Below, one piece after another: positions 1 to 52,365 of a DNA stretch of 64,000 nt. A model generated the notes under the pieces. It saw only the letters and a program-made list of their open reading frames with translations, was not told the origin of the DNA and did not search any database. Positions within the stretch are counted from its first letter, which is position 1. Each line of letters starts with the position of its first letter. This DNA comes from a virus: the IMG/VR virus record IMGVR_UViG_3300010885_044017, positions 62,001 to 126,000 of that record. One strand, written 5' to 3'. The position numbers and the translations under genes are program-made.

Positions 1-927
1 GTCGGCCCAGGCAAGTAGCTCATCTAAGTAGTAGACATTCTGTATATTAATAGTGAAACATAACTGTGTAGTAATAGAACCGTGGCGAAATGTTCTAAAA
101 CCATGTATTTTGTCAACTATTGTATTTGCTTGATCCCATTTTGCACCGTAGCGTTCATATTCAAATCTATCCCCAACATTGTCAACGCTAAACGCAATAT
201 CCACACGGCCGAACTCGTCCCATAAATTAAAATGTTCTTGTGAGGGTTCTTGTGTGGCATTGGTGTTGTAATGAATGTCAATATGCTTGCTGTGTCCACG
301 CAACACTGCATACTTTAAAAGATCAAAATGTTCTTCAATCAGCCAGGGTTCACCGCCGGTGAATTCTATATACCGTATATTGGGCAACAATGACCTCATG
401 TTGTCCCAGAATGTAGCAGTCTTGCGTGGCCATGCACCCTGTCGTAACCAGGTATAGGCTATGTGTGATTTTTTGTCTACGCCTGCGGGCAAGTAGGCCA
501 TTTCCTCTTCAGCCCACTTGCTGCTACTCCACGAGCCACATATACGACATTTGAGATTGCAAATGTTTCCCAGTTTCAAATCCACAAACCACAGTTGATC
601 CGGGTCATCGTTTGCCCAGTCCACTTTTGGGTATAATTCCTTTAGTCTTATCTGTGTGTGTATTCTTTTGCTGGCTCGGCCAGCGGCTTCTTCGTCCCAA
701 CAACGTGTACAGGTGGCAGGCTTTGCACCTGCACGAAATTGCCTACGTAACTCCTGCATATACTCACTGTGATACGCAGTTTCAAGATCGGTGTTGTTTA
801 AATCGTACTTGACTCCTTGCTCATCTGGGATCTCATCATGAGCCAAACAGCAAGGCCGTACAGTGCCCATGGGACTGGCCTCCACACTGATCCATGGTAG
901 CATACAAATTGTGTCAGGAAGGGTCAT
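1..927 (-). CDS. Radical SAM protein with N-terminal twitch-like domain (partial, C-terminus outside window)
   Basis: The frame is open from an ATG at 927 to the window edge (309 codons), so the C-terminus is missing. The N-terminal ~80 residues have the twitch-type cysteine pattern: an IC-x3-PW start near residue 8, a PCC near 26, then CTRC at 73-76. The radical SAM cluster motif CNLKCRIC follows, with Cys123, Cys127 and Cys130 (CX3CX2C) expected to bind the 4Fe-4S cluster that cleaves S-adenosylmethionine. A TGGEPWL motif about 65 residues later is the usual SAM-binding GGE. Its start overlaps the stop of the upstream gene by 14 bases, so it is the downstream member of a translationally coupled operon. 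It is closest in layout to the proteins at 914-2230 and 46704-47828. The substrate is unknown; related twitch/SPASM enzymes act on peptides or sugars. Confidence 0.88.
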   Translation of the reverse strand, partial: MTLPDTICMLPWISVEASPMGTVRPCCLAHDEIPDEQGVKYDLNNTDLETAYHSEYMQELRRQFRAGAKPATCTRCWDEEAAGRASKRIHTQIRLKELYPKVDWANDDPDQLWFVDLKLGNICNLKCRICGSWSSSKWAEEEMAYLPAGVDKKSHIAYTWLRQGAWPRKTATFWDNMRSLLPNIRYIEFTGGEPWLIEEHFDLLKYAVLRGHSKHIDIHYNTNATQEPSQEHFNLWDEFGRVDIAFSVDNVGDRFEYERYGAKWDQANTIVDKIHGFRTFRHGSITTQLCFTINIQNVYYLDELLAWAD

Positions 928-2230
928 ATTGTTGTATCGCCTTTAATTCTGGAAACACTGCAAAGAAATCTTCACTGCGTACTTGATCTATTAGATTATT
1001 AGTTTTAAAGAAACTAGGTAATTCATGTGTGCTGTCTTGTGCCATCATAAAGTTGACTACACCTTCGTACCCCGAAGTGGCACGGGATAATGTATCCAAG
1101 GGACGTAACCATTCTAAATGTGTTTGAATTTTATCTTGTGCTTGCAATTTTAACGGTTCAGGCAGTACATCTACACGATAGCGATGTGGATGTTGTAGTA
1201 TGTTTATGTTCCAATCCATTGGGCGTAACAGTCCCAGATCCACCCATTCTCTATGAAAGTCTGTGATGTGCAACACGTTCATCATGCTGACTGTACTCGA
1301 TACATAGAAATCCACGTTGGGACAAATCTTCAACATACGCTCACGGTTCTCTACAGTTTCTTTCCAGTTTTGCCCTTTGCGTATGTACTCTCCACGCTGA
1401 TAACTACCATCAAGGCTGGCACCTATGCTGACACAGTCAAACAGTTTCCACATCTCAAGTACATCACGACCTTTGAATTTGAGTTCACTGAAGTTTGTGT
1501 TATAAATTAGTCGTACATGAAACATTTCACGTCGAACCAGCTCGTCTAACACTTTCCAATGTTCTTCCATGATCAGGGGTTCGCCGCCGGCCCAGTAGAT
1601 TTGTTCCAAGTGAGGAATGTGCTCTTGCATCTGTTGCCACATGTCACCTTTGTCTCGTCCGGCATACATTATCTGTGGATGCTTCGGATCCCATCCTGCG
1701 GCCTTTTCGTCTTTGTGCCAATTGCTAGAGAAGATACCACCACAAGTTCTGCAGGCAAAATTGCAAAGGTTACTGAAGCGAATGTCGTAGTAGCGTAATT
1801 TAAAATCATCGTACTGACCATCGGGCCGTGTGTTGTCCACTAGGCCAATATGATGTCCAAAGTTTTTGTTAGCACTTTCTCTCATACTAAACAAGCGACT
1901 TTTCTCTTGTTCGTAACATTTAGTACATTCTTTTGATGGAACGTTGTTCAGCATGTTGACTCGCATTTGTTTCAGCGGTGCATCATTCCATATTTCACGC
2001 ATGGTGTGTGTTTTGAGATTGCCAACAGGATGATCGGGCTCACTTAAACAACAGGGATAAGCACGACCATCCGGGAAGGCATGCATGTGTATCCAAGGGA
2101 TCATGCAGAACTCATCGCTTTTTACTAGTCTATCAAGTTGATCTGGTGTTAATTCTGATTCTTTGATATAAATGGGCTTGCGGGCACCGTAGTTGTAATT
2201 TTTGTAATAATCTTCTATGTTGTCTGCCAT
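914..2230 (-). CDS. Radical SAM protein with N-terminal twitch-like domain
   Basis: This 438-residue protein has a twitch-like cysteine region first: FCMIPW at 41-46, PCC at 59-61 and ECTKC at 101-105. The radical SAM motif CNFACRTC follows with Cys156, Cys160 and Cys163. WAGGEPL about 60 residues on is the SAM-binding GGE segment, and the region after it has the regular beta/alpha pattern of a TIM-barrel core. The reaction is not identifiable; by family it should generate a 5'-deoxyadenosyl radical, with the extra cysteines probably holding an auxiliary cluster. Its start overlaps the preceding SGNH hydrolase stop by 16 bases and its stop overlaps the next radical SAM start by 14, so the three are translated as a coupled set. 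The neighbourhood suggests glycan or surface modification. Confidence 0.88.
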   Translation of the reverse strand: MADNIEDYYKNYNYGARKPIYIKESELTPDQLDRLVKSDEFCMIPWIHMHAFPDGRAYPCCLSEPDHPVGNLKTHTMREIWNDAPLKQMRVNMLNNVPSKECTKCYEQEKSRLFSMRESANKNFGHHIGLVDNTRPDGQYDDFKLRYYDIRFSNLCNFACRTCGGIFSSNWHKDEKAAGWDPKHPQIMYAGRDKGDMWQQMQEHIPHLEQIYWAGGEPLIMEEHWKVLDELVRREMFHVRLIYNTNFSELKFKGRDVLEMWKLFDCVSIGASLDGSYQRGEYIRKGQNWKETVENRERMLKICPNVDFYVSSTVSMMNVLHITDFHREWVDLGLLRPMDWNINILQHPHRYRVDVLPEPLKLQAQDKIQTHLEWLRPLDTLSRATSGYEGVVNFMMAQDSTHELPSFFKTNNLIDQVRSEDFFAVFPELKAIQQYDPS

Positions 2231-2955
2231 GTCAATATATTTCTTTCAGCCAAAAATGGCATTGCTATTGCTTTAGTCCAAGTTTCGTGTCCTTGCATAC
2301 TGGGATGGAACTTATCATCTTGCAATAAATCTAGATCTCTACAGTAGTCACCTAAGCATGGTACTATCCATTTTGTTTTATCAATCGATAAATTCAAGTC
2401 TGTTAATTCTTTATTGTAATCGACCCATAACTCTTTGGTATTCTTGATATCTGTTATCGATGAGTAATAGAATTCAAATCCTTTTACTGTTAGGTAGTTA
2501 GACAAATTTGACATTGATAACCAACTGTGTAATGCAAAACTGTGCGAGCTTTGATATTTGCTGTATTCAACTAGTGTTTGCTCAATATGCGTTCTGCGTT
2601 TGGGGTGCCACCAACTACCGCCAAGAACCAACTCATTGTAACCATCATAATTGTAAGTAAATGGGTATGCATTTTTAAAATTTGATAACGACTTGTCTGT
2701 TATCCAATCTATACGTGCCACTCCCGACCACATGGCCATAACTAATGTGTCAGCAGGATCTAAATTGTGTTGTTCAATATATAGCATGATGCTATTGGCA
2801 ATGTGAGTGTTGCCAGCACCCGGTATGGCTAGGTTAATAATATTCATTCCAGTCCACACTGCTAAATCATTTGCCCAAGCAAAATGCTCTTCACAGTCAT
2901 TATGTGTAAAACTGCACCCCGAAACTAGTAGTGTTTTATATTTAGAACGAGTCAT
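2215..2955 (-). CDS. SGNH/GDSL-type hydrolase
   Basis: This 246-residue protein has the SGNH landmarks. A GCSF block at 13-16 carries the likely nucleophile Ser15. A GAGN segment lies near residue 66, and a C-terminal FHPSMQGH block supplies the catalytic Asp/His region. SGNH enzymes remove or transfer acyl groups (often acetyl) on sugars or lipids. There is no signal peptide, so it probably acts in the infected cell's cytoplasm. It is sandwiched between radical SAM genes with 14- to 16-base overlaps on both sides, which ties it to the same pathway. Similar stand-alone SGNH genes occur at 6607-7326 and 44888-45640. The substrate is unknown; acyl transfer is as plausible as hydrolysis. Confidence 0.78.
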   Translation of the reverse strand: MTRSKYKTLLVSGCSFTHNDCEEHFAWANDLAVWTGMNIINLAIPGAGNTHIANSIMLYIEQHNLDPADTLVMAMWSGVARIDWITDKSLSNFKNAYPFTYNYDGYNELVLGGSWWHPKRRTHIEQTLVEYSKYQSSHSFALHSWLSMSNLSNYLTVKGFEFYYSSITDIKNTKELWVDYNKELTDLNLSIDKTKWIVPCLGDYCRDLDLLQDDKFHPSMQGHETWTKAIAMPFLAERNILTWQTT

Positions 2956-3280
2956 ACCATTCTGCTAGGTTGGGAAATGTTGTTGTAAAGTTTTTGCCTC
3001 TGCGTTGGTCGTATTGTGTATAAAATTTCTTAAAGTCCTGTTGTAATACGCTTTGTTCTGCTGCACCCACATGCGGAGTTTTGACTACATCTAAATAGTC
3101 TATCAAGCGTTGTACTTGATTGGTTTCAAATTGATGTAATAACTGATTGTTTTTATTTGTGTTGAACCATGCTTGTAATTTAAGTTTATAGCCGTTGCGT
3201 ATGTCATCTGGCAACACTAAAGGACTTTGAAAACTTGGAAAGCGTAATATATAGTGAGAATGTAGGGAAGTCTCGGCCAC
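2942..3280 (-). CDS. C-terminal fragment of frameshifted radical SAM protein
   Basis: The frame opens at a GTG and encodes 112 residues, but it is best read as the displaced C-terminus of the radical SAM protein at 3204-4328. Its end (Q-x-DFKKFYTQYD-x-RR, then T-T-FP) matches the end of the neighbouring paralogue at 4288-5673 (DFYRFFNEHDKRR, then LTTFPEM). Its beginning continues the alignment where the other frame stops matching. Joining the two by removing one base gives a 461-residue protein, exactly the paralogue's length. The joined stop at 2942 overlaps the SGNH hydrolase start by 14 bases, as at other junctions in this operon. An independent small gene is unlikely. Confidence 0.7.
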   Translation of the reverse strand: MAETSLHSHYILRFPSFQSPLVLPDDIRNGYKLKLQAWFNTNKNNQLLHQFETNQVQRLIDYLDVVKTPHVGAAEQSVLQQDFKKFYTQYDQRRGKNFTTTFPNLAEWYDSF

Positions 3281-4328
3281 ATAGGTCTTTCCACTCCAGG
3301 CATTGATCCAAAAAATCAGTTAAACTATCCAAGCATAATGCGTTGATGGTACACATAATGTGAAATCCTTCTAGGTCAGCATCACGCAACACCTGTTCCA
3401 CATTGGCAGTCCATGTATCCCATACCAGCCCATCACGAATGTATTCGCTTTGTACACCTGTTGCTTCGTTACTGGTGTACAGGTGAAAATGCTTGATGCT
3501 GTGGGCGGCCGCAACAAGTCGATCAATCAATTCTGGTTTGGCGCCAAGATTGCTGTTGATGGCAAACCGCATGTCAGGGTTGACTCGACTGTTGTTGTTC
3601 TTGAACCATTCCAATAATCTCCAGGTGTCGCCCGACATCAGTGGCTCTCCACCAGTTAATCGAAGCTCCTGAAGTGTGCGATGGAGATCTGACTCCCACC
3701 ATGCAAAGAACGCTTCAACGTAAGGATTACTTTCACCAAAGCGATAAAGCTGACTACTTGCATGATTATGAGTGTAATGATTCCTACCGTCTGAAGTGAG
3801 GCCGGTATAAGCACCCATGGTGTCAATATCTTTAACCCAAGTGCTGCTGAAAGCAGGGTTACAGTAACTACACCCAAAATTGCATGTGCGATCAAAAGCA
3901 ATTTCAAGCGTTTGTAAATCCACATCTGTGCTGGCTGGCCTAGCGAATGCATTTCTCAAATCCTCATCTGAATATATAACTGTTTTGTAAACTCTATCAC
4001 TTATGTTGTCTCGCCCGATGTCTTCAATCTTCCAACAGTACTCACAACCTGCGGGACGTTCTCCGCGTTGCATCTGTTCGCGTTCCATTTTTTTCCGTTG
4101 TGTGTTGTGTATGGCCTTGGGATTGGTTCGAATCTCGTCGATATCTATGGCATGTGGTAATGGATGATGACAACTGGTGGTTTGACCTGATCCCAACCAT
4201 ATGGTGGCGTTGTACCATTTGGCCGCACAAAAGCTTTCGCTCTTGATGTCAATTACTCTTTTTTTGTATTCTAAGTCGGTCTCATTGTCAATTCTTGGCA
4301 TGGTATTCACATTCTTTCCAAAATTCAC
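3204..4328 (-). CDS. Radical SAM protein, N-terminal part of a frameshifted gene
   Basis: The 374-residue reading frame carries a twitch-like region (FCAAKW near 33; GCEYCW near 94-99), then the radical SAM motif CNFGCSYC with Cys149, Cys153 and Cys156. LRLTGGEPL is the SAM-binding GGE. It is a clear paralogue of 4288-5673: both share LPHAID/LHAID, GCEYCW/ECSYCW and the (N/S)PxFSSTW block after the cluster. Homology is lost in the last ~20 residues, and the true C-terminus resumes in the +1 frame (2942-3280). One extra base between about 3240 and 3290 explains this. The start overlaps the paralogue's stop by 41 bases. A sequencing insertion, a real mutation and programmed +1 frameshifting are all possible; the first looks most likely to me. 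Confidence 0.82.
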   Translation of the reverse strand: MNFGKNVNTMPRIDNETDLEYKKRVIDIKSESFCAAKWYNATIWLGSGQTTSCHHPLPHAIDIDEIRTNPKAIHNTQRKKMEREQMQRGERPAGCEYCWKIEDIGRDNISDRVYKTVIYSDEDLRNAFARPASTDVDLQTLEIAFDRTCNFGCSYCNPAFSSTWVKDIDTMGAYTGLTSDGRNHYTHNHASSQLYRFGESNPYVEAFFAWWESDLHRTLQELRLTGGEPLMSGDTWRLLEWFKNNNSRVNPDMRFAINSNLGAKPELIDRLVAAAHSIKHFHLYTSNEATGVQSEYIRDGLVWDTWTANVEQVLRDADLEGFHIMCTINALCLDSLTDFLDQCLEWKDLCGRDFPTFSLYITLSKFSKSFSVAR

Positions 4329-5673
4329 GCATTTCGGGAAAAGTAGTTAAAAAATCTGTTTGACGCCTTTTGTCGTGTTCATTGAAGAACCGATAAAAGT
4401 CTGCACGTTGTAGTTTAACATAGTCGGGGTCTAACTTGCAACCTTCCTGCATCCATGCTATGTCTCTGCGTAGGCGTTGTACTTCGTAGTCTTTAAAACC
4501 TTGGAATGGATCTTCCTCTGTTTCCAAGTTCAGTTCCATCCAGTCGGACACACGTTCCAACACACCTGTGTATACAGGTGGCAGTATCTGTAGGCTTTGC
4601 CAGGTGGGTGTGCGTAGCAAGGGAGTATCAAACCAAACACGTTGATATGTGGTGCTGTGACGTTTTCTTAAATCCAGTATCCATTGCAATTGACGTTGTA
4701 GGCCCAGCACACTTAAATTATTCATGGTGATAATGAATGTCAGACTGTTACGGTGGGGCACTTCTGTCAAATATCTGTTGACATATTCATGTAATCTATT
4801 CATGTTGAGACCATGCCTGATATATTCTGCATGTTTGATGTTGCCAGAATCCAAGCTGACATACTGCATGAAATGTTCTATCTGTATTGCACATAACTGT
4901 TTTACATAGTCCAAATATCGTTCAAACAACGCCTGGTCCACGCTGAAGTTGCTGGTGACATTTAAATGTAGATCTGGTTTTGGCATGGCCAACACATAAT
5001 CAAATACCCGATAAGTGTTGCGGTCCATCAATGGTTCACCACCGGTCATTCTAAAGTGTCGCAGTTTGGGGTACAGTTCTGGCCACCATGACCAAAATGC
5101 CTCTACGTAAGGATTTTCATGACTGGCCGGGATTGGCCTATTACGACCAGTAAAATGACTAGGGTCGTTATGAATTGTTGTAGTTGGGTACCCTCCCCAT
5201 CGATCCACTTCCGCTTGCCATGTTGAACTAAACTGCGGACTACAATAACTGCAAGCAAGGTTACAAGCATGATTAAAATTAACTTCCACATAACTGGGTA
5301 CAACATCTTCATCTCCTCGAGAGTTTTTGATTGCTTCGTAGTGTTCTGCGGCCCACGGTTCTCCTGACCTATAATGTCTGTCGCTTAATTGATCATGTCG
5401 TTCTATGTTCCAACAGTAACTACACTCTGCAGGTTGTTCATTTTTCAACATGATGATGCGTTGCTGTTTCTTGTGTTCGGTGTTGTGTAATGCACTGGGA
5501 TTGAGTTTTACAGCATCAGCATCTATGGCATGCAATGGTGGATGGTAACACGAATTATTGAGACCGGTGGGAAGATGTAGGCTCACTTGTTGCCATTTGG
5601 CCAAGCAGAGTGAGTTGCCAAGTTTTGCTTGCATCTCTTCGGCTGCTGACATGAATACGCTTTTATCCAACAT
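4288..5673 (-). CDS. Radical SAM protein with N-terminal twitch-like domain
   Basis: This 461-residue protein is intact. A twitch-like segment (CLAKWQQ near 23, SCYHPP near 41, ECSYCW near 83-88) precedes the radical SAM motif CNLACSYC at Cys137, Cys141 and Cys144. FRMTGGEPL supplies the SAM-binding GGE. The C-terminal ~110 residues after the barrel form a helical tail ending in a conserved T-T-FPEM segment that is also present in the frameshifted paralogue downstream. It is an internal duplicate of that gene and the best template for judging the frameshift. It overlaps the upstream glycosyltransferase-like gene by 11 bases. The function is presumed S-adenosylmethionine-dependent radical chemistry on an unidentified substrate. 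Confidence 0.88.
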   Translation of the reverse strand: MLDKSVFMSAAEEMQAKLGNSLCLAKWQQVSLHLPTGLNNSCYHPPLHAIDADAVKLNPSALHNTEHKKQQRIIMLKNEQPAECSYCWNIERHDQLSDRHYRSGEPWAAEHYEAIKNSRGDEDVVPSYVEVNFNHACNLACSYCSPQFSSTWQAEVDRWGGYPTTTIHNDPSHFTGRNRPIPASHENPYVEAFWSWWPELYPKLRHFRMTGGEPLMDRNTYRVFDYVLAMPKPDLHLNVTSNFSVDQALFERYLDYVKQLCAIQIEHFMQYVSLDSGNIKHAEYIRHGLNMNRLHEYVNRYLTEVPHRNSLTFIITMNNLSVLGLQRQLQWILDLRKRHSTTYQRVWFDTPLLRTPTWQSLQILPPVYTGVLERVSDWMELNLETEEDPFQGFKDYEVQRLRRDIAWMQEGCKLDPDYVKLQRADFYRFFNEHDKRRQTDFLTTFPEMREFWKECEYHAKN

Positions 5674-6610
5674 AGGTCAATTTAGTTAGAAATTTTTTAT
5701 TGATTAGCAAATTATAATTGTGTTCCAATATTTCTTGCATGTCTGCGTACATGGAACTTATTTCTTGCTGTGATTTAGATGCTATATTATCTATCGATTC
5801 TAATATCATTTTGTATTTTTGTTTTGGTTCATATCCATCGTAATCTTCGCTCCAATAGTCATTAAATGTTTTAAATCCCATTTGCCGTAGATGTATTAGA
5901 AAGCACTTTGGGCCCATTATAATAAATGGTTTTTTAAGCAATATTGGTCTTACTGTTTTTTCAGTAGCAAAAAAAGTTTTACCACTGGTGAATGTTTCTG
6001 CTACAATATCAATTAAAAACTCAGTGTATAATTTGCACAATTGGTCGGTGTGTTGCGTTGTTGTGGCTCCAACAGTATAGTCGTCAAATTCTTTCAGCAG
6101 TGCGGGAAATTTTTTATATGTTTGTATAAAGTTCTCAACCGATGCAGGATCTGTTTCAAACAAGGACTGTAGTTCAAAAAGTGTTCGACTGTCCTCATCA
6201 TGTGGGTTGGCTCGAAAATTTACCATGCTGACTGTCCTGTGATTTGCATACAAGTGACTTGCAATACCAATTCGATGCCATATTGGTCGATTGTACAGAG
6301 CTCCAAACAGCTTAGAGTTATTCCATACATGATACTCTTTGTATTCTTTTTCAATCTGAAAAAATTTAAAGTAAGATTGAGCATTAACTATGTTATAGGT
6401 GTTATGAGATTCAAAAATGTTATTAGATAATATAGTCACTGATTTAAATTTAAATAAATCTAAAATTTTGTATACACCAATAGCATTGAGGCAACATCCT
6501 TCGCTATTAACTGACAACAGTATATCTTTCTCTTGATTGTTCACCAAGAACGACATTAACTCCGATTGATTCCATATAAAATTATCAGCTGGTATTATAA
6601 CAAATTTCAT
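5663..6610 (-). CDS. Putative glycosyltransferase-like protein (TEKT/KPF motif)
   Basis: This 315-residue protein has a characteristic C-terminal block: Glu205, then F-x-TEKT at 214-219, KPF at 227-229, GFKTF at 245-249 and a SEDYDGYE acidic segment. This arrangement (E, TEK, then PF and a GFKTF/YD segment) resembles the nucleotide-sugar site of fucosyltransferase-like GT-B enzymes and recurs in uncharacterised aquatic phage proteins. The N-terminal half is not recognisable. The gene is noticeably more AT-rich than the radical SAM genes beside it, suggesting separate acquisition. The 4-base overlap with the upstream SGNH gene and 11-base overlap with the downstream radical SAM gene place it in the operon. 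The glycosyltransferase assignment rests on motif memory and needs a profile search. Confidence 0.5.
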   Translation of the reverse strand: MKFVIIPADNFIWNQSELMSFLVNNQEKDILLSVNSEGCCLNAIGVYKILDLFKFKSVTILSNNIFESHNTYNIVNAQSYFKFFQIEKEYKEYHVWNNSKLFGALYNRPIWHRIGIASHLYANHRTVSMVNFRANPHDEDSRTLFELQSLFETDPASVENFIQTYKKFPALLKEFDDYTVGATTTQHTDQLCKLYTEFLIDIVAETFTSGKTFFATEKTVRPILLKKPFIIMGPKCFLIHLRQMGFKTFNDYWSEDYDGYEPKQKYKMILESIDNIASKSQQEISSMYADMQEILEHNYNLLINKKFLTKLTYVG

Positions 6611-7326
6611 TCGCGTATCATCAGTCCTTGGATTTTTTCTATCAATAAGTTTGCGTATATTTCATATGCTTCTGGGCTAGGGTGGGACTGATCGGTGACA
6701 TCCCACATGTTGTTGTTTTCTGCAATATCAAGTAAAAATTGATCGACATACATATGGTTCATGTCAAGTTGATTAAACAAATGCCTATGTCTGTCAAATG
6801 TTTTAAATTTTCTACCAAAACAAAACAAATAAGGAATTGAGTTTGCTTTTAAATAACTTTGTAGGGAGATCATTTTTATTAATAAATGATATGTTTGCTC
6901 TGATGACCCAATATATTGATAATAATTTTCAAATACCTTGACTATATTTGGATCTCTGTCTTGATTAACAGCATATCCGCAACCAAAGATCCAATCTTTT
7001 TCTACATAATCTTGATCATTAATCGGATAAATTATTTTACCAGGCCAGTCATTCTGTTTGTATTGATAATTTGATGTAAATATTGTATTATTAAATAATT
7101 CAATATTTTGCACTTTATAATCAATACGTATAAAAGGTACCCACTGTACAATAACTAAATCGTATGTTCTTTGTGCTAACTCTGATATTGTTGTTTCGTG
7201 TAGATAAGTATTACCGGCACCAGCTTGTGATAGGTTTACAATATTACTATTAAATTTTTTTTGTATGGCGTACGGCCAGCTAGTGGGTCCACGACTAATC
7301 GAACCTCCATTAATAAGTAAATTCAT
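6607..7326 (-). CDS. SGNH-like hydrolase
   Basis: This 239-residue protein begins directly with an SGNH block: NGGSIS at 6-11 with likely nucleophile Ser9. QAGAGNT near residue 36 is the glycine block, and a C-terminal DVTDQSHPSPEAYEIYA segment supplies the Asp and His. It shows the same three-block layout as the SGNH protein at 2215-2955, with little other similarity by eye. It lacks a signal peptide. The DNA is AT-rich like its downstream partner at 5663-6610, with a 4-base start/stop overlap, so the two look like one transferred pair. An acyl esterase or acyltransferase acting on a phage-made glycan is my inference. Confidence 0.72.
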   Translation of the reverse strand: MNLLINGGSISRGPTSWPYAIQKKFNSNIVNLSQAGAGNTYLHETTISELAQRTYDLVIVQWVPFIRIDYKVQNIELFNNTIFTSNYQYKQNDWPGKIIYPINDQDYVEKDWIFGCGYAVNQDRDPNIVKVFENYYQYIGSSEQTYHLLIKMISLQSYLKANSIPYLFCFGRKFKTFDRHRHLFNQLDMNHMYVDQFLLDIAENNNMWDVTDQSHPSPEAYEIYANLLIEKIQGLMIRE

Positions 7327-7376
7327 TTATGTAAATCCTTTAATTAAACCACCACCGGCTCTATTTGTTAAATTTA

Positions 7377-8273
7377 TCATTCTCTTGCCATGGGACCAGT
7401 ATTTCTAAACTGCGATTTGTAATGATGTTTGAAGAATCTACTGGCATCAGCCGACATGTCTACAATAGGCAATCCCAAGCGTGTGCGTAAGGTTTCTCCC
7501 ACACTGGCACATTGATCTGGGCCGTCTTGTTTAAAACTTTGCCATAATCTTGCCAATACATCAAAGTCTTGTACATCTCGATAGTTCCACTTTTCTATCA
7601 TGGTCATGTATGTGCCAAGTCTTGCTCCGTATATTGCCCATGATCCGTTTTCGACATCGGCGCCCACAGTTTGCCAAATGCATAAATGATCATAGTTGCG
7701 ATTGTGTACACGTCTTTCAAATTCGGGCATGTTGGGCCTTGCGCCACGATCCAAACACATCTTGACACCTTCGCGGAATCCAGCTCGCCATGCCTGTTCA
7801 GGTGTGGCATTGGGATAGGTAGTCGAATAACAATCGTGCATGGCCCAGTAATTAGGATAAAAACAAAACTCTACATCATTCTCTGCAGAACCATCCGTGG
7901 CTTCGTGGGTACGCATGTTGTATATAAATTCTCGAGTCCAACAGCTGACACCACCGTTGCCATACATCAATCCATTTATGTGATTTTTAGCCCGCCATCT
8001 AAATACACAGTCACGATTGGTATCGTCTAGCTCTAGTTGTAGATTAAAAAATTCAGGGTCAGGAATGTTGTCACCATCAATTAATACAAAGCGATCAGTG
8101 TCACTGGCCGCTGCCGCTGCCTTGTGTGCAGCATCCGATCCTTTGACTCCATCTACTCGCTTGGCCCAAGGCACCATGTTTTGTACTCTAATCCAATTGA
8201 TTTCTCGATTGGGTTCATTGTAGGTTAAAAAGATGCAATCTAAATCTGCAACGTCAATGATTTCTGTGGTCAT
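7377..8273 (-). CDS. GT-A-fold glycosyltransferase-like protein
   Basis: This 298-residue protein opens with a beta-strand and FLTYNEPN segment, then an NW-x-R helix. The A-x-RVDGVKG and AHKAAA segments and a FVLIDGDN strand follow, with DGD at 66-68 as the metal-binding DXD motif. This is the nucleotide-sugar fold of GT-A glycosyltransferases and is common in T4-like aquatic phages. The next part (GLMYGNGG, then FCFYPNYWAMHDCYSTTYPN) is probably the acceptor site. A 50-base gap separates it from the SGNH gene downstream; upstream it overlaps the small gene at 8254-8613 by 20 bases. Donor and acceptor are unknown; virion protein, DNA base or glycan are all possible. Confidence 0.75.
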   Translation of the reverse strand: MTTEIIDVADLDCIFLTYNEPNREINWIRVQNMVPWAKRVDGVKGSDAAHKAAAAASDTDRFVLIDGDNIPDPEFFNLQLELDDTNRDCVFRWRAKNHINGLMYGNGGVSCWTREFIYNMRTHEATDGSAENDVEFCFYPNYWAMHDCYSTTYPNATPEQAWRAGFREGVKMCLDRGARPNMPEFERRVHNRNYDHLCIWQTVGADVENGSWAIYGARLGTYMTMIEKWNYRDVQDFDVLARLWQSFKQDGPDQCASVGETLRTRLGLPIVDMSADASRFFKHHYKSQFRNTGPMARE

Positions 8274-8613
8274 AATATTCTGTTTCCGAGTATGATTCGC
8301 CAGTCTCTATAATTAATCCAGCGTGATTTTTTACTGTTCGGTAGCCTGTATTGGATTTAGTTAATTTTACACTATAAATGCTGGCTTGGTCAATCTTTAT
8401 TAATTGTCCTTTAACTATGCGATAATCAAAGTATCGTTCATATTTGTCTTTTGATACCACAACATAGTGGTTTGATTCAGGGTGGTCTGCCATACTACAC
8501 ATAACAATCTCGCCCAATTCATTGTAGTGCAATCTATATTCTATTTCAACTTTAGGAATGGGGATGATCAGGCTTTCAACTTGTGCCCAAAAATCACGTT
8601 CGTCTTGATTCAT
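8254..8613 (-). CDS. Hypothetical protein between two glycosyltransferases
   Basis: This 119-residue protein is unrecognised. It begins with an acidic helix (NQDERDFWAQVESL), then alternates short beta-rich segments with many Tyr and Ile residues and ends DHRNH. There is no signal peptide, membrane segment or cysteine motif. It overlaps both neighbouring glycosyltransferase genes by 20 bases and has normal codon use for the operon, so it is very likely real and translated with them. A role as a partner of one of the glycosyltransferases is the only contextual guess. The 20-base overlaps make misplacement of the frame unlikely. Confidence 0.7.
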   Translation of the reverse strand: MNQDERDFWAQVESLIIPIPKVEIEYRLHYNELGEIVMCSMADHPESNHYVVVSKDKYERYFDYRIVKGQLIKIDQASIYSVKLTKSNTGYRTVKNHAGLIIETGESYSETEYYDHRNH

Positions 8614-14804: not shown

Positions 14805-14807
14805 AGT

Positions 14808-42677: not shown

Positions 42678-42680
42678 GAG

Positions 42681-43894: not shown

Positions 43895-43923
43895 ATTTGT
43901 TCTGTGATAATTAAGTTATACAG

Positions 43924-43931: not shown

Positions 43932-43963
43932 AACAAAATAAACTGCTATTATTATAAAAGTGG

Positions 43964-43993
43964 TTGACCCAAGGTGTAAATATATGTTAGTAT
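43964..43993 (+). promoter_or_regulatory. Candidate sigma-70-type promoter for the gp55 operon
   Basis: TTGACC (43964-43969) is followed after 18 bases by TAGTAT (43988-43993), with TGT just before it as in extended -10 sites. The start site would be near 44000, leaving a short leader with a GAGGAA ribosome binding site and a TTG start at 44016. Early or middle expression by host polymerase fits a late sigma factor gene. Confidence 0.42.
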
Positions 43994-44015
43994 ACACTTA
44001 CAACGAGGAAATAAA

Positions 44016-45640: not shown

Positions 45641-45684
45641 ATCAGTGGTTGCAAATGTATGGATAAATTTGCTACACTATGTAA

Positions 45685-46704
45685 ATGACCAACTTATTTA
45701 AAAAAGCAGCAGTTTTCACAGACATACATTTTGGCTTGAAAAGCAACAGCACCTTGCACAACGAGGATTGTTTGGCATTTGTCAAATGGGCCACTGCTCG
45801 GGCCCGGGCAGAAGGCTGTGAAACTTGTATTTTTACCGGTGACTGGCACAACAATCGTGCGTCGATCAATATTCTCACACTGGGCTACAGCCTACGTGCT
45901 TTGGAGCATTTGAATGAAAACTTTTCGCAAACATTCTTTATTCCCGGCAATCACGATTTATATTATCGTGACAAGCGTGATGTACAAAGTGTGGAGTGGG
46001 CCCGACACCTGGCCAACATCCATATTTGTAACGATTGGACTACTATGGGCGATGTTACTATTGCTCCGTGGCTGGTGGGCGACGACCATAAACGATTAAA
46101 GAAGCTGTCCGGCAAGTACATGTTTGGGCATTTTGAACTGCCGGGCTACTTGATGAATGCCATGGTGGCCATGCCGGATCACGGTGAAGTCGATCCTCGA
46201 ACGGATTTGACCGGATTTGAACATGTTTATTCTGGACACTTTCATAAAAGACAAACTAGAGGCAATGTCACTTACTTGGGCAACTGTTTCCCGCACAACT
46301 ATGCTGATGCCGGTGACGATGATAGAGGCCTAATGATACTGGAGTGGGATCATGAACCGGTGTATCATGCATGGCCCGATCAGCCCAGATATCGTGTGTT
46401 TCAACTCAGTGATGTACTCAAGCACACCGAGTCCATGTTGGAACCCAATATGCATGTTAGAGTTAACCTAGACATTGATATTAGTTACGAAGAAGCCACT
46501 TTTATCAAAGAAACTTTTATAGATACGTATAAGTTACGAGAGATTACACTTATACCGGCCAAAGTGACAGAGTTGTCTGATTACGAAATAGCTGGCAATA
46601 TTAATTTTGAAAGTGTGGATCAAATTGTGTTTGGACAGTTGAGCAACATCGAAAGCGAACAATTCAATAAAAATCTGTTATTAGATATCTATAGGAATTT
46701 ATAA
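45685..46704 (+). CDS. gp47: Recombination endonuclease subunit gp47 (SbcD/Mre11-like)
   Basis: This 339-residue protein has every metallophosphoesterase motif: FTDIHFG (Asp13, His15), GDWHNN (Asp53, His55), GNHD (89-91 region), GHFELPG and GHFHKRQ. With gp46 it forms the Mre11/Rad50-type nuclease that resects DNA ends for recombination-dependent replication and degrades host DNA. Length matches T4 gp47 (339). The gene is separated from gp46 by two radical SAM genes, which is not the usual adjacent arrangement. Its stop overlaps the first radical SAM ATG by one base. A weak sigma-70-like promoter (TTGCAA, 18 bases, TACACT at 45673-45678) would make its message leaderless. Confidence 0.94.
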   Translation: MTNLFKKAAVFTDIHFGLKSNSTLHNEDCLAFVKWATARARAEGCETCIFTGDWHNNRASINILTLGYSLRALEHLNENFSQTFFIPGNHDLYYRDKRDVQSVEWARHLANIHICNDWTTMGDVTIAPWLVGDDHKRLKKLSGKYMFGHFELPGYLMNAMVAMPDHGEVDPRTDLTGFEHVYSGHFHKRQTRGNVTYLGNCFPHNYADAGDDDRGLMILEWDHEPVYHAWPDQPRYRVFQLSDVLKHTESMLEPNMHVRVNLDIDISYEEATFIKETFIDTYKLREITLIPAKVTELSDYEIAGNINFESVDQIVFGQLSNIESEQFNKNLLLDIYRNL

Positions 46705-47828
46705 TGTCTGACTCTTTTTGTGTTAATCCTTGGATTAGTATGCACTATTTCATGGGCAAACAAATTAATCCTTGCTGTTTGTTTGCAGGCGGGATAAAAA
46801 CAAACAACATCAATGAATATGCCAATAGTACACAATTGGCCAACATAAAACAAAATTTACTCGACAATAAAAAAATTAACGAATGTGCTACCTGTTGGAA
46901 TCAAGAAAGTCAAGGCGGTGTCAGCAAACGCCAACAAGATAATAAAACTTACAAGAAAATATTTGATTATCAATTTAAAAATCAACTAACAGAACCCAAT
47001 ACCAATTTTGTTGAATACTATGTTAGGTTGGGAAATCATTGCAATATACGATGCACTACCTGTAACGATACACTAAGTACTGGCTGGATAAGTGAAAAGA
47101 AAAAATTCAATTTGCCGTCGGGTCCTGTGCTGAATATTACATCTGCAGATCCAATTTGGCAACACCTCAAAGACCATGCAAAGAATATAGCCAGCATAGA
47201 ATTCATCGGGGGCGAACCGTTTATGATGAACATCGACGAACAACGCGATTTATTTGATTATTTTGTAAAGTCCGGCGATGCTAGACATATTAAATTAAAA
47301 TACAATACAAACGGCACACGTATGCCTGCAGAACAAATAGAATTCTGGAGCAAATTTGGTGAGATTGAGTTAAATGTTAGTATGGACGGAGTAGAGAATC
47401 AATTTGAATATTTAAGATTTCCGGCAGTATGGTCTGAATTTGATGCAAATTTAACCAAGTACAAAGAATTGGCCACGATATTACCTAATTTAAAATTAAC
47501 GGTGATGCACACATTGAGTATATTTAATATTGGGTATGTGCAAAAAACTATAGATTATTGTAAAGAAAAAGAAATTGCAATATTTTTTAATATGTTACAT
47601 GCTCCAACTTATTTTAATCTTTATAATTTTACAGCCGATGTGTCTGAATGGATACAAAATCAAATCAATGAGGTTGATGATACAACTATTAAAAATATAC
47701 ATGACCGTTTATCAAAGGAACCAGGTTTCTCCAATTCAAAGTTTTTGAGTAAATGCCAAGAACTTGACCGTCGTAGAGGATTAAGTATAGCAGAAACATT
47801 TCCAGAATTGTACCAATGTTTAACTTAG
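46704..47828 (+). CDS. Radical SAM protein with N-terminal twitch-like domain, inserted after gp47
   Basis: This 374-residue protein has the N-terminal twitch pattern FCVNPW near 5-10, NPCC at 22-25 and ECATCW at 60-65, then the radical SAM motif CNIRCTTC with Cys113, Cys117 and Cys120. IEFIGGEPF is the SAM-binding GGE. It is closest in layout to 914-2230 and 1-927 of the minus-strand island. The last ~20 residues (DRRRGLSIAETFPEL) echo the TTFPE end of the other twitch-type members. The gene is AT-rich relative to gp47. It begins on the gp47 stop and overlaps the next radical SAM gene by 13 bases. Role unknown. Confidence 0.87.
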   Translation: MSDSFCVNPWISMHYFMGKQINPCCLFAGGIKTNNINEYANSTQLANIKQNLLDNKKINECATCWNQESQGGVSKRQQDNKTYKKIFDYQFKNQLTEPNTNFVEYYVRLGNHCNIRCTTCNDTLSTGWISEKKKFNLPSGPVLNITSADPIWQHLKDHAKNIASIEFIGGEPFMMNIDEQRDLFDYFVKSGDARHIKLKYNTNGTRMPAEQIEFWSKFGEIELNVSMDGVENQFEYLRFPAVWSEFDANLTKYKELATILPNLKLTVMHTLSIFNIGYVQKTIDYCKEKEIAIFFNMLHAPTYFNLYNFTADVSEWIQNQINEVDDTTIKNIHDRLSKEPGFSNSKFLSKCQELDRRRGLSIAETFPELYQCLT

Positions 47829-48781
47829 ATCAAATCACTACGTTAGATATTGAAACTATTAATAATTGCAACGCTCTTTGTCCTTTATGTCTGCGAGGAG
47901 AAGGAATGACCACGAATGATCGATTGGATTGGACTCAAGTAATCAAACAAATACCCGATACTGTCTGGCAACAGGTTAAAAAAATTAATTTTAATGGCAC
48001 AACAGGTGACAATCTAATGCATCCAGAAATTGCAGATATTTTGGCATGGGCCATTAACAATACCAATGCACAGGTTATTTTACATACCAATGGTAGTTTA
48101 AGAAACACCACCTGGTGGGGCAATTTAGGAAAAGTATTTGGTACCAAGCATCGTGTGGTATTTGGTATAGACGGGTTAGAGGATACTCACAATGTGTATC
48201 GAGTAAACACAGATTGGCAAAAAATTATAGATAATGCAAAGGCTTTTATCGACGTAGGCGGCTGTGCTGTTTGGCAATTTATTATATTTGACCACAATCG
48301 GCATCAAATTGATGAGTGCAGGGCATTAAGTGAAAAATTAGGGTTCCGCAAGTTTTTACCTATACTTCAAGATCGATTTGATGCTACTGGGACTCAAGGC
48401 CAAATACAACGTGCAAATATCGTCGCAGTACCTGTTGATACTATCATAAAGCCAACTAGCAATAATTTCAATAAAAAGAAGTTTACACAAGTAAAAGTTG
48501 ATTGTCTGAGTCAAAAAACAGGATGGGTCAGCATATATGCAGATGGTACCATATGGCCTTGCTGTTGGTTAATGGGGTGGCACTTGGCTAAACATCAAAA
48601 AACTCAATATGCAATTATCAACTATCATTTTAAGAAAATATTAAATATTGACTTTGCACAAATTAGTCTTTATAATAAGACGCTAGAAGAAATTATTGGC
48701 AGTGATTTGTGGCAAAAAAGATTTCCAGATAGTTTTAACAACAACCCAAACTTGGTGTGTGTACAACAATGTTCAAAATAA
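47816..48781 (+). CDS. Radical SAM protein with C-terminal SPASM-like domain, inserted before gp46
   Basis: In this 321-residue protein the radical SAM motif CNALCPLC is near the N-terminus (Cys18, Cys22, Cys25). A NFNGTTGDN segment replaces the usual GGE. The C-terminus has the SPASM-like WVSIYADGTIWPCCW (~240) and further cysteines ending VCVQQCSK, expected to hold an auxiliary iron-sulphur cluster. This is the second architecture class, shared with 50531-51367 and 51361-52365. The start overlaps the previous gene by 13 bases, and the end overlaps the gp46 start by 13. The coupling of these genes to gp46 is unusual. Peptide or sugar modification is suggested only by the family. Confidence 0.85.
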   Translation: MFNLDQITTLDIETINNCNALCPLCLRGEGMTTNDRLDWTQVIKQIPDTVWQQVKKINFNGTTGDNLMHPEIADILAWAINNTNAQVILHTNGSLRNTTWWGNLGKVFGTKHRVVFGIDGLEDTHNVYRVNTDWQKIIDNAKAFIDVGGCAVWQFIIFDHNRHQIDECRALSEKLGFRKFLPILQDRFDATGTQGQIQRANIVAVPVDTIIKPTSNNFNKKKFTQVKVDCLSQKTGWVSIYADGTIWPCCWLMGWHLAKHQKTQYAIINYHFKKILNIDFAQISLYNKTLEEIIGSDLWQKRFPDSFNNNPNLVCVQQCSK

Positions 48782-50538
48782 AAGATTTAACTGTAAAAAA
48801 TTTCATGAGCGTGGGCAACAGCACCCAGGCTGTAAACTTTGACCGTCAAGACTTGACCTTGGTGCTGGGTGAAAACTTGGACTTGGGTGGAGACGATTCT
48901 GGTGCTAGAAACGGCACCGGTAAGACCACCATCATCAATGCTCTCAGTTATGCCTTGTATGGCAATGCACTAACCAATATCCGTAAAGAAAACTTGATCA
49001 ATAAAACCAATCAAAAAAACATGATGGTGACTGTGGATTTTGAAAAGGATGGAGAAACTTATAGAATTGAACGTGGCAGAAAACCCAATGTCATGCGTTT
49101 CTTTGTGGGAGATACAGAACGAGAAATCACCGATGATGCTCAAGGTGATTCAAGAGAAACACAAGCAGAAATAGAACGCATGTTGGGCATGAGCCACGAC
49201 ATGTTCAAACACATTGTAGCACTCAACACCTATACCGAACCATTTCTTGCCCTGCGTGCCAACGATCAAAGATCTATCATCGAACAGTTGCTGGGCATTA
49301 CATTACTAAGTGAAAAAGCTGATCGACTAAAAGAACAGAACAAAGCCACTCGAGATTCAATTACGCAAGAAGAATATCGTATCAAGGCCGTGGGCGATGC
49401 CAATGTGCGTGTACAAGAACAAATTGAAAACTTAAAGCGTAGACAAACCTTATGGAAGACTCGACATGACGCAGACATTGCCAACCTGGAGACGGCGCTC
49501 GATCAGTTACTCGAGCTTGATATCGATCAAGAGATTGGGGCACACCGGGCACTTACGGCGTATCTTCAAAAGAAGAAAGACATCAGTGACGTACAGTCCT
49601 ATCTTCGACGTTCTGCACAGGATCAAGTACGTGAAACTAAAGCTATTGAAAAACTCCAGCAAGAGATCGCATCGCTGCATGACCATCAGTGTCACACCTG
49701 TGGGCAGGAGTTCCACGACGAGCGGCATGTACAGGTCTTGGAGGCTAAACAACAGGATTTAACTGTGGCTGAAGAAAATTTGATCACTGCTGTCAACGAT
49801 GTGGCGGCATTTACCGAAGCTGTGACTACATTGGGCGAACTGGGCTCGGCACCTGCTACGTTTTATGATCAAGAACAAGATGCTGTGCAACACAGAGCCA
49901 GCGTGGCCAGTTTGCAACAACAGTTAGCCGTGAAAAGCGAGGAAGACGATCCTTATCGTGATCAAATTGCAGAAATGCAAAGTCAAGGCATTGAGGAAAT
50001 TAGTTATGATGCTATCAACACCCTGACCAATGTGCGAGAACATCAAGAGTTTCTGTTAAAGTTATTGACTAATAAAGATTCGTTTATTCGCAAACGTATC
50101 ATTGATCAAAATCTAAGTTACTTAAATGCTAGACTGGGACAATATCTAGACCGTATTGGTTTACCGCACACTGTGAAATTCCTTAACGACCTAACTGTAA
50201 GCATCACTGAACTGGGAAGAGATCTAGACTTTGACAACTTGAGCCGTGGCGAGCGTAATCGTTTAATACTTTCCTTGAGCTGGAGTTTCCGCGATGTGTG
50301 GGAAAGTTTATATCAACCCATCAACTTGTTGTTTATAGACGAGTTGATTGATTCCGGGCTTGACTCATCGGGAGTTGAAAACAGCTTGGCTATTCTTAAA
50401 AAAATGTCCAGGGAAGGTAATAAATCAATTTGGCTGGTAAGTCACAAGGATGAACTGGTTGGTAGGGTCAACAACACTCTTAAAGTAGTTAAAGAACACG
50501 GCTATACCACTTACAACACGGATGTAGAAATTGTATAA
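48769..50538 (+). CDS. gp46: Recombination endonuclease subunit gp46 (SbcC/Rad50-like ATPase)
   Basis: An ATG at 48769 (MFKIKDLTVKNF) is preferred to an upstream GTG at 48757, giving 589 residues (T4: 560). Walker A is SGARNGTGKTT at about 44-54, two coiled-coil arms flank a zinc hook CHTCGQEF with Cys308 and Cys311, the signature is NLSRGERNRLIL, and Walker B is LLFIDELID near 521. It dimerises through the hook and drives gp47. Bases ~49480-49750, covering the coiled coil and hook, use a more GC-rich codon set (CTC, CGG, GCG) than either flank, so this module may have been exchanged. It is flanked on both sides by radical SAM genes with 8- to 13-base overlaps. Confidence 0.94.
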   Translation: MFKIKDLTVKNFMSVGNSTQAVNFDRQDLTLVLGENLDLGGDDSGARNGTGKTTIINALSYALYGNALTNIRKENLINKTNQKNMMVTVDFEKDGETYRIERGRKPNVMRFFVGDTEREITDDAQGDSRETQAEIERMLGMSHDMFKHIVALNTYTEPFLALRANDQRSIIEQLLGITLLSEKADRLKEQNKATRDSITQEEYRIKAVGDANVRVQEQIENLKRRQTLWKTRHDADIANLETALDQLLELDIDQEIGAHRALTAYLQKKKDISDVQSYLRRSAQDQVRETKAIEKLQQEIASLHDHQCHTCGQEFHDERHVQVLEAKQQDLTVAEENLITAVNDVAAFTEAVTTLGELGSAPATFYDQEQDAVQHRASVASLQQQLAVKSEEDDPYRDQIAEMQSQGIEEISYDAINTLTNVREHQEFLLKLLTNKDSFIRKRIIDQNLSYLNARLGQYLDRIGLPHTVKFLNDLTVSITELGRDLDFDNLSRGERNRLILSLSWSFRDVWESLYQPINLLFIDELIDSGLDSSGVENSLAILKKMSREGNKSIWLVSHKDELVGRVNNTLKVVKEHGYTTYNTDVEIV

Positions 50539-51367
50539 GGTCTTGCACATCGAACCCACTGATGTTTGTCACGCCACTTGCGCCTTGTGTGCTAGAGAAA
50601 CCGATTCAAATTTTGATAAAAATAAAAAACATCATTTGTCTGTGGATCGAATCAAAGATAAATTTGACACTGAATTTATAAAAAATCTAGACAAAATGTT
50701 CATGTGTGGCAACTACGGCGACCCAGCTGCTGGAAAACATACTTTAGAAATATACGATTACTTTAGATCCGTTAATACTGAAATTACACTAGGCATGAAT
50801 ACCAATGGTGGCATTCGCGAATCTTGGTGGTGGACTCAAATTGGATCAATATTCAATCAACCGCGGGACTATGTTGTATTCAGCATCGACGGACTAGAAG
50901 ACACCAATCGTATATATAGAAAAGGTGTAAGTTGGAATGTTATTATGGCCAATGCTCAAGCATTTATTGTTGCAGGTGGCTCAGCACATTGGGACATGTT
51001 GGTGTATCGGCATAACGAACATCAAGTTGATGCTTGTGAACAACTGGCACGTGACATGGGATTCAAATGGTTTAGAGCCAAAGTGAGTCGACGTCCGCTG
51101 GCCAATGGATTAGAGTATCCCATCAAATGGCAATCACCTTTAGAAAAAACTGGTACTGTAGAGTGTTTTGCGTTAAACGAACAAAGTATATACATAGATG
51201 CTCAAGGTCGTGTTAGCCCGTGTTGTTGGCTAGGTTCTAGACAACAGGATTTTGATTTTAAAGGGGTTGCCACTGCATCAAATCCTGTATGCCGTGCAAC
51301 ATGTAGCACCCATAGTAAAAAAACTACATTTACTGCACAATGGCAACGTGAGGTTGAACTATGCTAG
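50531..51367 (+). CDS. Radical SAM protein with SPASM-like C-terminus
   Basis: It starts at a TTG at 50531, overlapping the gp46 stop by eight bases, and encodes 278 residues. The radical SAM motif CHATCALC is at Cys13, Cys17 and Cys20. MFMCGNYGDP takes the place of the GGE segment, and FSIDGLEDTNRIYRKG follows. The C-terminal SPASM-like part is IYIDAQGRVSPCCWLG with later CRATC cysteines. It is a paralogue of 47816-48781 (FGIDGLEDTHNVYRVN) and 51361-52365, so the three arose by duplication around gp46. The last seven bases are shared with the next gene (ATGCTAG). Confidence 0.85.
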   Translation: MYKVLHIEPTDVCHATCALCARETDSNFDKNKKHHLSVDRIKDKFDTEFIKNLDKMFMCGNYGDPAAGKHTLEIYDYFRSVNTEITLGMNTNGGIRESWWWTQIGSIFNQPRDYVVFSIDGLEDTNRIYRKGVSWNVIMANAQAFIVAGGSAHWDMLVYRHNEHQVDACEQLARDMGFKWFRAKVSRRPLANGLEYPIKWQSPLEKTGTVECFALNEQSIYIDAQGRVSPCCWLGSRQQDFDFKGVATASNPVCRATCSTHSKKTTFTAQWQREVELC

Positions 51368-52365
51368 CCACCTGGCATTTTCATATCGAAATATCTAGTA
51401 AATGTACACTACGTTGTCCTAGATGTGCTAGACAAGAAGTTCCCGACACACTGGTCAATACTGAACTGGATTTAGAATTCTTTAAACGTAACTTTACAGC
51501 AGAATTTATTATAAACAATGTAGAAAAGATCACCTTCTGCGGCGACGACGGAGATCCTGTATATGCACATGACTTGATTTCTGTAATACATTATGTTAAA
51601 AGTGTCAAACCGGTGGAGTTTGTCATCATTACAAACGGTAGCTATAAGCGAGCAGAATGGTGGGCAGAGCTGGGTGCTATGCTAACAGAAAAAGACACTG
51701 TACACTTTAGTATAGATGGATGGGACAATGCCAGTAATAATTTATATCGTGTAAACAGCGATTTCAACAGCATTACCCAGGGCATAACAGCATTGAGAAC
51801 CGCTAGCCAATGTCGCTTGATATGGGCCGCTATAGCATTTAAGTTTAACCAAGAATATCTAGGACAAATGAAAAACTATGCTGCTGCATTGGGGATGGAT
51901 GCGTTTCAATTGACCAAAAGTACCAAATTTGGCAGTGTATATCCCAGTTACGGTGCTAACGATCCGTTAGAACCCAGTGATAAATTTGTCAGCAACACAC
52001 TTAGATTTGAACGAGAGCAAATCGATTTTACCAATCGAGCACCTGTCACGCACCCAATTAATTTTGAATTATATACTCAGAATCAAGATAGAACACCGGT
52101 GGTACCTTTGTGCGAAATAGGTAATAAAGGATTATACATAGATGCTCGCGGTAGATTATTTCCGTGCTGTTGGGTAGCTAATAGGTATAACCACAATCAA
52201 GAATGGCAAACATTAGCAGAACAGTTCGATTTACACCACCGTACATTAACAGAGGCTTTATCCAGCAGTTTTTGGAGAGAAGAATTTCAAACATTCAAGT
52301 GGCAAGAATGCCAAACAAAATGTTCCGCAAGGGTCGTAAATCAAGATTATGCGACACAGTGGTGA
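51361..52365 (+). CDS. Radical SAM protein with SPASM-like C-terminus
   Basis: This 334-residue protein has CTLRCPRC with Cys15, Cys19 and Cys22 and a FCGDDGDP segment where GGE is usual. FSIDGWDNASNNLYRVN matches its paralogues, and the C-terminal LYIDARGRLFPCCWVANR with a distal ECQTKCS completes the SPASM-like cluster. It is longer than 50531-51367 by an insertion in the middle. It closes the radical SAM run; the GIY-YIG-like gene follows after 19 bases. By family it should have two 4Fe-4S clusters. The substrate is unknown. Confidence 0.85.
   Translation: MLATWHFHIEISSKCTLRCPRCARQEVPDTLVNTELDLEFFKRNFTAEFIINNVEKITFCGDDGDPVYAHDLISVIHYVKSVKPVEFVIITNGSYKRAEWWAELGAMLTEKDTVHFSIDGWDNASNNLYRVNSDFNSITQGITALRTASQCRLIWAAIAFKFNQEYLGQMKNYAAALGMDAFQLTKSTKFGSVYPSYGANDPLEPSDKFVSNTLRFEREQIDFTNRAPVTHPINFELYTQNQDRTPVVPLCEIGNKGLYIDARGRLFPCCWVANRYNHNQEWQTLAEQFDLHHRTLTEALSSSFWREEFQTFKWQECQTKCSARVVNQDYATQW

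Follow-up and report, generated by a model that had tools for sequence, protein, structure and literature searches.

Multiple radical S-adenosylmethionine (SAM) genes have been reported in phages since 2010 without a function being assigned to them. The T4-related Campylobacter phages CP220 and CPt10 carry 11-12 such genes (PMC2853527), five of which lie in one region beside sugar-transferase-like genes, and twelve have been published for a T4-like marine genome (PMC5332604). In the pelagimyophage host recognition cluster, tail fibres are found with glycosyltransferases and radical SAM cassettes (PMC7029224), and in Mosig EXVC030M genes of radical SAM, carbamoyltransferase and aminotransferase type occur together. 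Here we analyse a stretch of 64,000 nucleotides (the window), which corresponds to bases 62001-126000 of the 151,913-base IMG/VR virus record IMGVR_UViG_3300010885_044017 and contains eight radical SAM genes. The record is that of a T4-like phage, with genes for the major head protein, the portal and the head protease, for nuclease subunits of gp46/gp47 type, for a late sigma factor and for the baseplate. We find that four of the eight genes, together with one just outside the window, form a single inherited unit of five radical SAM genes with fixed partners beside the tail fibres. High radical SAM gene counts were already known, but this organisation is new, and five such genes can now be approached as a single testable pathway.

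An earlier note on this DNA, made from the letters alone, had listed the eight genes and divided them between two architectures, here class A and class B. All eight open reading frames (ORFs) are indeed present where the note placed them, although the window edge truncates the one at 1-927, and the one at 3204-4328 covers a gene incompletely. Each of the eight proteins contains an exact CxxxCxxC motif and matches PF04055 (E from 4e-4 to 2e-8), with 4/8 scoring above the Pfam cut-off and the remainder significant. Across the record the motif occurs in nine ORFs of at least 150 amino acids, against 0.085 expected by chance from shuffled proteins. The record holds eleven radical SAM genes in total: six of class A, four of class B or class B-like, and one QueE. 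Three of these lie beyond the window, namely a class A gene (record 59364-60659), a class B-like gene (20968-21996) and QueE (29468-30319). That eight in 64 kb would be remarkable for a virus was not borne out, as comparable or higher counts are known in other phages and in related records; 19 long related records contain between 6 and 21 each.

The five-gene block and its fixed partners

A scan of IMG/VR with the class A protein A2 returned 99 relatives, and 80 of the 99 loci were read. The A2 orthologs share 50-91% identity. Phylogenetic analysis of 424 class A proteins resolves five groups (A0-A4), each represented once, or almost always once, in a locus and arranged in the order A4-A3-A2-A1-A0. 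Identity is 0.55-0.74 within these groups versus 0.18-0.31 between them. The five groups are ancient, non-interchangeable paralogs kept together, in keeping with the suggestion that so many enzymes imply several related reactions. The first four class A genes of the window and the one at record 59364-60659 make up the complete five-group set. All four lie on the minus strand: A1 (window 1..927, record 61710-62927; group found in 74/80 loci), A2 (914..2230), A3 (main piece 3204..4328) and A4 (4288..5673; group likewise in 74/80 loci).

The A3 frame is broken near its 3' end, and a C-terminal piece lies in another frame on the same strand (2942..3280), matching positions 300-398 of the family profile NF033640 and aligning to the end of an intact A3 in the relative L198. 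Both A3 pieces align end to end on that one gene, and the group has a median length of 451 amino acids elsewhere. The portal gene (window 56742-58465) is split between two frames in the same way as A3 (2942-4328), and indels in this record, from sequencing or assembly, are therefore likely and offer the simplest account of both breaks.

Gene order is near-constant across the 80 loci: tail genes, h105, two GTb genes, h119, GTa, mostly at least five class A radical SAM genes, SGNH genes, a carbamoyltransferase and a kinase. We defined 46 loci as complete, chosen for an A2 gene, an upstream tail gene and enough downstream sequence. All five class A groups, GTa and two GTb genes are present in 46/46 of these, and the SGNH genes and carbamoyltransferase in 45/46. 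Neighbouring cluster genes are separated by a median of -14 bp, and the block adjoins the tail-fibre genes and runs in the same direction.

The co-occurrence of GTa with class A genes is not forced by the choice of contigs, because it is also seen in records picked by gp46 or the class B gene B3 instead of A2. GTa is present in 14/14 long related records obtained in this way, and ten of these have at least five tandem NF033640 genes after GTa (in G028 one is cut by the contig end). Of the remaining four, two are cut near a contig end, and the sister records G025 and G026 have no NF033640 gene above the cut-off. G025 and G026 keep the tail genes-h105-GTb-GTb-h119-GTa part, while the class A, SGNH and carbamoyltransferase part is replaced by a set that, named by eye, comprises two other radical SAM proteins, methyltransferase-like and GNAT-like proteins, and others. 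This swap is as expected of a constant assembly part joined to an exchangeable tailoring part. In the sister phages L336 and L337, in which GTa is retained with its neighbouring genes, the replacement set includes a radical SAM protein with a cysteine-rich N-terminal part.

The carriers of the block are uncultured T4-like phages of lakes and seas. Among 50,697 annotated phage records no match to GTa was found, and A2 matched only 13 Vibrio phages at approximately 21-25% identity; the pelagimyophages differ, as those weak Vibrio phage matches were the only ones for either protein among annotated records. A search with B3 finds three Campylobacter phage records, at 24% identity, and the search with A2 yielded no Campylobacter phage. 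The CP220 cluster differs further in containing an amidinotransferase gene and in having been described as interchangeable rather than fixed. In the open-licence papers searched, the five-group block is not described, and none was found that joins phage, radical SAM, carbamoyltransferase and SGNH.

Fe-S architecture and partner enzymes

The class A proteins belong to the NCBIfam family NF033640 ('N_Twi_rSAM'), which has no assigned reaction. The five window proteins score 247-403 bits (A1 284 bits as truncated in the window and 329 bits for the whole gene, A2 403, A3 247, A4 290) against a curated cut-off of 170 bits, and six such genes occur in the record. In common with the family, they place a four-cysteine twitch before the barrel; in the present block the family appears as five co-inherited groups. 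The pattern is C-x17/18-C...CxxC, and its cysteines (C42, C61, C102 and C105 in A2 numbering) are invariant in the six class A proteins. Within groups the iron-sulphur (Fe-S) cysteines are kept across the 80 loci, a few A3 copies being the only ones with gaps there; one cysteine of the CC pair is missing from A3 and A4. Class B has the CxxxCxxC cluster at residue 13-18 and a C-x12-G-x4-CC...CxxxC unit at the C-terminus, after the barrel, that resembles the class A unit. The two-architecture description was therefore accurate, and the two units look like the same small module on opposite sides of the barrel, which from the sequences would suggest a domain permutation.

The C-terminal end of class B had been called SPASM-like. 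A twitch/SPASM-like character stands, but the full seven-cysteine SPASM pattern does not, since the first half (C-x12-G-x4-C) is followed only by CC and CxxxC. B1 and B3 reach 18.3 and 19.4 bits with SPASM PF13186, short of its cut-off of 21.5 bits, and B2 gave no match. All Fe-S cysteines are invariant in 91 B3-like proteins, while in a wider class B set the first is often His. The earlier note had named a missing radical SAM fold in class B as what would overturn its scheme; the profile search instead gave PF04055 matches. All eight proteins are placed in the radical SAM superfamily by motif, by PF04055 and, for A2, by a modelled partial TIM barrel, and they are predicted to cleave SAM and to carry out radical chemistry.

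The AlphaFold2 (AF2) model of A2 (pLDDT 93) shows a radical SAM barrel. Its top-ranked structural neighbours include peptide maturases, with SkfB at Z 12.6 (226 residues aligned, root-mean-square deviation (rmsd) 3.7) and CteB at Z 12.4, as well as anSME and SuiB. The sugar-acting enzymes BlsE (Z 12.3, rmsd 3.9 over 221 residues) and DesII (Z 12.0, rmsd 4.4 over 234) score closely. The N-terminal twitch of A2 is barely covered by the structural matches. The class A profile also matches the twitch of BtrN, likewise a sugar-acting enzyme, weakly (E 0.06); in BtrN, however, the match lies at residues 162-242, after the barrel, whereas the class A twitch comes first. Class A shows no close sequence similarity to BtrN, BlsE or DesII. 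A-type Fe-S carrier genes (PF01521) occur in 7/12 related records (G004-G006 and G015-G018), two of them directly beside radical SAM genes, and also in the T4-like marine genome TARA_ERS488813_N000010 with its 12 radical SAM genes; no such carrier was found in the present record.

The partner genes in the window continue the block on the minus strand. GTa (7377..8273), a putative GT-A type glycosyltransferase and a strongly conserved marker of the block, matches Glyco_tranf_2_3 weakly, and the N-terminal half of its AF2 model resembles a GT-A/nucleotidyltransferase fold (Z about 8). Two copies of GTb (8594..9439 and 9426..10250), also putative glycosyltransferases, match a glycogenin profile at E 0.1. 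A third putative glycosyltransferase, FT (5663..6610; 56/80 loci), carries an EKxxKPIxxxxPF motif and appears GT10-like by eye only; it gave no Pfam or PDB match. Two SGNH/DUF6071-like proteins lie at 2215..2955 (DUF6071 E 5e-4, below the cut-off; family in 70/80 loci) and 6607..7326 (27.5 bits against a cut-off of 27). The small proteins h119 (8254..8613) and h105 (10219..10533) are conserved in 43/46 and 45/46 complete loci, respectively. Beyond them lies tf1 (10587..11483), called a tail-fibre-type protein from its position and sequence type; it has no PHROG match, and the complete loci were themselves chosen to hold a tail gene.

The carbamoyltransferase (record 55289-56764) is of the CmcH/NodU/TobZ type, with PF16861 at 167 bits and PF02543 at 126 bits, both above cut-off, and its nearest relatives are NovN, GdmN and TobZ, O-carbamoyltransferases with sugar or antibiotic substrates. 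The record further contains nucleoside diphosphate (NDP)-sugar type genes, comprising two epimerases, two DegT aminotransferases and one hexapeptide transferase. A second sugar-type cluster is located at record 19033-25283 and consists of an epimerase, the radical SAM gene B0, a hexapeptide transferase, a DegT aminotransferase and an AMP-binding enzyme.

The earlier note had also advised a search for conserved partner peptides. Such a peptide does exist, but it tracks the carbamoyltransferase and not the radical SAM genes. It is a 33-residue microprotein, MNWLRNLYNRIVLERRYRKKLKELRRRDPFIYK, encoded outside the window (record 57410-57511, minus strand; locus L011) and overlapping two SGNH genes. 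A microprotein ending RDPFIYK is present in 68/80 cluster loci, in 54 cases between two SGNH genes. Its last eight codons and stop occur in 48 distinct DNA versions among 71 copies, and this retention of the same end indicates that the microprotein is under selection. A DNA pattern for this end recovered at least 120 viral loci. In all 120 loci listed the pattern ends an ORF, and in 95 of them a carbamoyltransferase lies beside it, at a median distance of 12 bp and on the same strand in 95/95; a class A gene within 6 kb was seen in only 29 of the 120. By comparison, 160 loci sampled by gp46 or B3 contain no carbamoyltransferase. This distribution marks the microprotein as a partner of the present carbamoyltransferase lineage, in which it may serve as a membrane tether or subunit; its N-terminus is membrane-like and hydrophobic in some phages. 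The microprotein as the precursor of a radical SAM-processed ribosomally synthesised and post-translationally modified peptide was rejected on the basis of this distribution. No match to the 33-mer was found in cultured phages by tblastn, a search that a query this short can escape, and no such microprotein was found next to the carbamoyltransferases of S-CAM8, P-SSM7, P-RSM4 and AG-345-D19 or in the Mosig region.

A putative glycan pathway and its alternatives

We favour, while giving it slightly less than an even chance, a reading in which the class A genes encode five steps of one phage pathway, complete by its looks, for making and tailoring a carbamoylated glycan on the tail fibre or the host surface. 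A glycan is preferred because of the kinship of the carbamoyltransferase, the GTa and GTb matches, the NDP-sugar genes and the predicted solubility of the cluster proteins. The fixed order of the five groups with their partners and the matches to BtrN, BlsE and DesII also speak for it. In such a pathway, the two GTb and one GTa would link sugars into a short chain on an acceptor. A4, A3, A2, A1 and A0 might then each make a successive change by means of a radical generated from SAM at the cluster in the barrel, while the auxiliary cluster near the N-terminus serves as an electron relay or substrate ligand; dehydrogenation, epimerisation or deoxygenation would be the likeliest types of reaction. 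Acylation or deacylation could fall to the SGNH-type proteins, and carbamoylation to the enzyme of CmcH/NodU type. The target may be the phage's own tail fibre or a host surface glycan. Late expression of the block is probable, given its overlapping genes and its position next to the tail genes, which run in the same direction. The transferases, carbamoyltransferase and tail fibre provide a first functional handle on NF033640. If the product does decorate the virion or the host surface, it would matter for the control of adsorption and competition by abundant aquatic phages.

Three observations weigh against this glycan pathway. The A2 model has peptide maturases and sugar enzymes tied among its neighbours. 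The identification of the glycosyltransferases is weak, as seen from the values given above for GTa and GTb and the lack of any match for FT. Finally, class A sets in Bdellovibrionota occur without the phage SGNH, GTa and GTb genes, some of them in housekeeping surroundings.

These sets were found in a scan of genome contigs, where bacterial relatives show mostly 30-43% identity and come from Bacteroidota, Bdellovibrionota, Elusimicrobia and others. A few contigs reach 51-56%, and four display the phage gene order inside metagenome-assembled genomes. On L268, a contig assigned to Bacteriovoracaceae (UBA6144), there are eight class A genes; inspection by eye places obgE-like and lgt-like genes close to them, and a carbamoyltransferase lies approximately 11 kb away. 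The eight genes branch beside phage groups A3, A0, A1, A2, A1, A4, A3 and A3 (support for the A4 placement is 0.2), and the phage groups stay monophyletic when they are added to the tree. L268 carries a diverged class A set, although the taxonomic assignment of such a metagenomic contig can be wrong. We further propose, at a chance somewhat below even, that five paralogous N-twitch radical SAM enzymes act as a co-inherited relay making an undescribed structure on a virion protein or a glycan. This relay would be fixed in one uncultured phage lineage, with a diverged form shared with Bdellovibrionota.

The strongest alternative is that the five enzymes modify residues of the tail fibre or another virion polypeptide, as SPASM-type maturases do, and that the transferases decorate the same protein. 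SkfB, CteB, anSME and SuiB, the top neighbours of A2, all act on peptides or proteins, the block adjoins the tail genes and its proteins are predicted to be soluble. The sugar enzymes BlsE and DesII, however, score within the tie, and no leader-binding (RRE) domain was present among the family-search matches. A precursor-type gene was likewise not apparent: among small ORFs in the gene gaps, none is common to more than eight loci except the carbamoyltransferase-tracking microprotein. We consider a protein target doubtful, though deserving of real weight.

A narrower form of the glycan reading confines the target to the host surface, with lipopolysaccharide or capsule altered so that competing phages can no longer adsorb (superinfection exclusion). 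This role was proposed for the glycosyltransferases of the pelagimyophage host recognition cluster, where radical SAM cassettes were also noted (PMC7029224), and the hydrophobic N-terminus of the carbamoyltransferase-linked microprotein in some phages, which is membrane-like, would fit it. The cluster nevertheless contains no flippase, polymerase or membrane glycosyltransferase, and its site beside the tail genes is equally expected if the virion is the target. Restriction to the host surface appears unlikely.

DNA hypermodification, with the carbamoyltransferase and transferases acting on 5-hydroxymethylcytosine (5hmC) or another base, seems very improbable. The known phage 5hmC carbamoyltransferase co-occurs with a thymidylate synthase homolog, which in that system is of the deoxycytidine monophosphate type and has Asp177 (PMC8670742). 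PF00303 is found in 8/12 related records, and all eight ThyA homologs read PFN at this position, with Asn177 in place of Asp and His kept at 147, the state of enzymes acting on deoxyuridine monophosphate; 5hmC carbamoylation was accordingly disfavoured. The other four records lack PF00303, with the caveat that any of the records may be fragments, and the block itself sits with tail genes. The present record does have FolE, QueD-like and QueE-like genes that can feed 7-deazaguanine synthesis. These are located at record 25329-26078, 26713-27339 and 29468-30319; a TGT-like reading of record 14289-15884 was made by eye only, with no Pfam or NCBIfam match.

That the radical SAM genes are unrelated auxiliary metabolic genes giving a general metabolic boost, as suggested for CP220 (PMC2853527), is scarcely credible for the block, since five single-copy orthologs that keep their order and their ligands in each complete locus do not make up a random assortment, even though many radical SAM genes elsewhere in these genomes are variable and the class B cargo described below fits the idea.

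Radical SAM cargo beside gp46

The remaining radical SAM genes of the window lie on the plus strand among the nuclease subunit genes. gp47, an SbcD-like subunit (window 45685..46704; phrog_100, E 4e-58), is followed by A5 (46704..47828; NF033640 294 bits), a lone class A gene that branches outside group A1, and by the class B gene B1 (47816..48781; PF04055 31.1 bits, phrog_21308 E 2e-26). The SbcC-like subunit gp46 (48757..50538; phrog_77, E 3e-101) precedes B2 (50531..51367; PF04055 34.9 bits) and B3 (51361..52365), and a GIY-YIG type protein (52385..52837; phrog_7363 homing endonuclease, E 6e-13) bounds the slot.

B3 is 68-74% identical in 80 contigs sampled with it, nearly all of which place it between gp46 and the GIY-YIG gene. 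B2 has a relative at more than 45% identity in 40/80 of these loci and A5 a close relative in only 1/80. This sampling suggested B3 as a core gene, an idea that was rejected when, among loci sampled by gp46, only 7/51 had a B3-like gene and 21/54 slots had no radical SAM gene. Among these 54 slots, 19 contain one radical SAM gene, 12 contain two and two contain three. The class B enzymes are separate, exchangeable accessory cargo, and the treatment of both classes as one system has to be given up: class A forms a conserved operon-like block near the tail fibres, and class B occupies the interval between gp46 and the GIY-YIG gene. Radical SAM genes make up 49/73 ORFs of the slot cargo, and many of the others are short-chain-dehydrogenase-like. 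In the present record this hotspot, from gp46 to the GIY-YIG gene, spans window 48757-52837.

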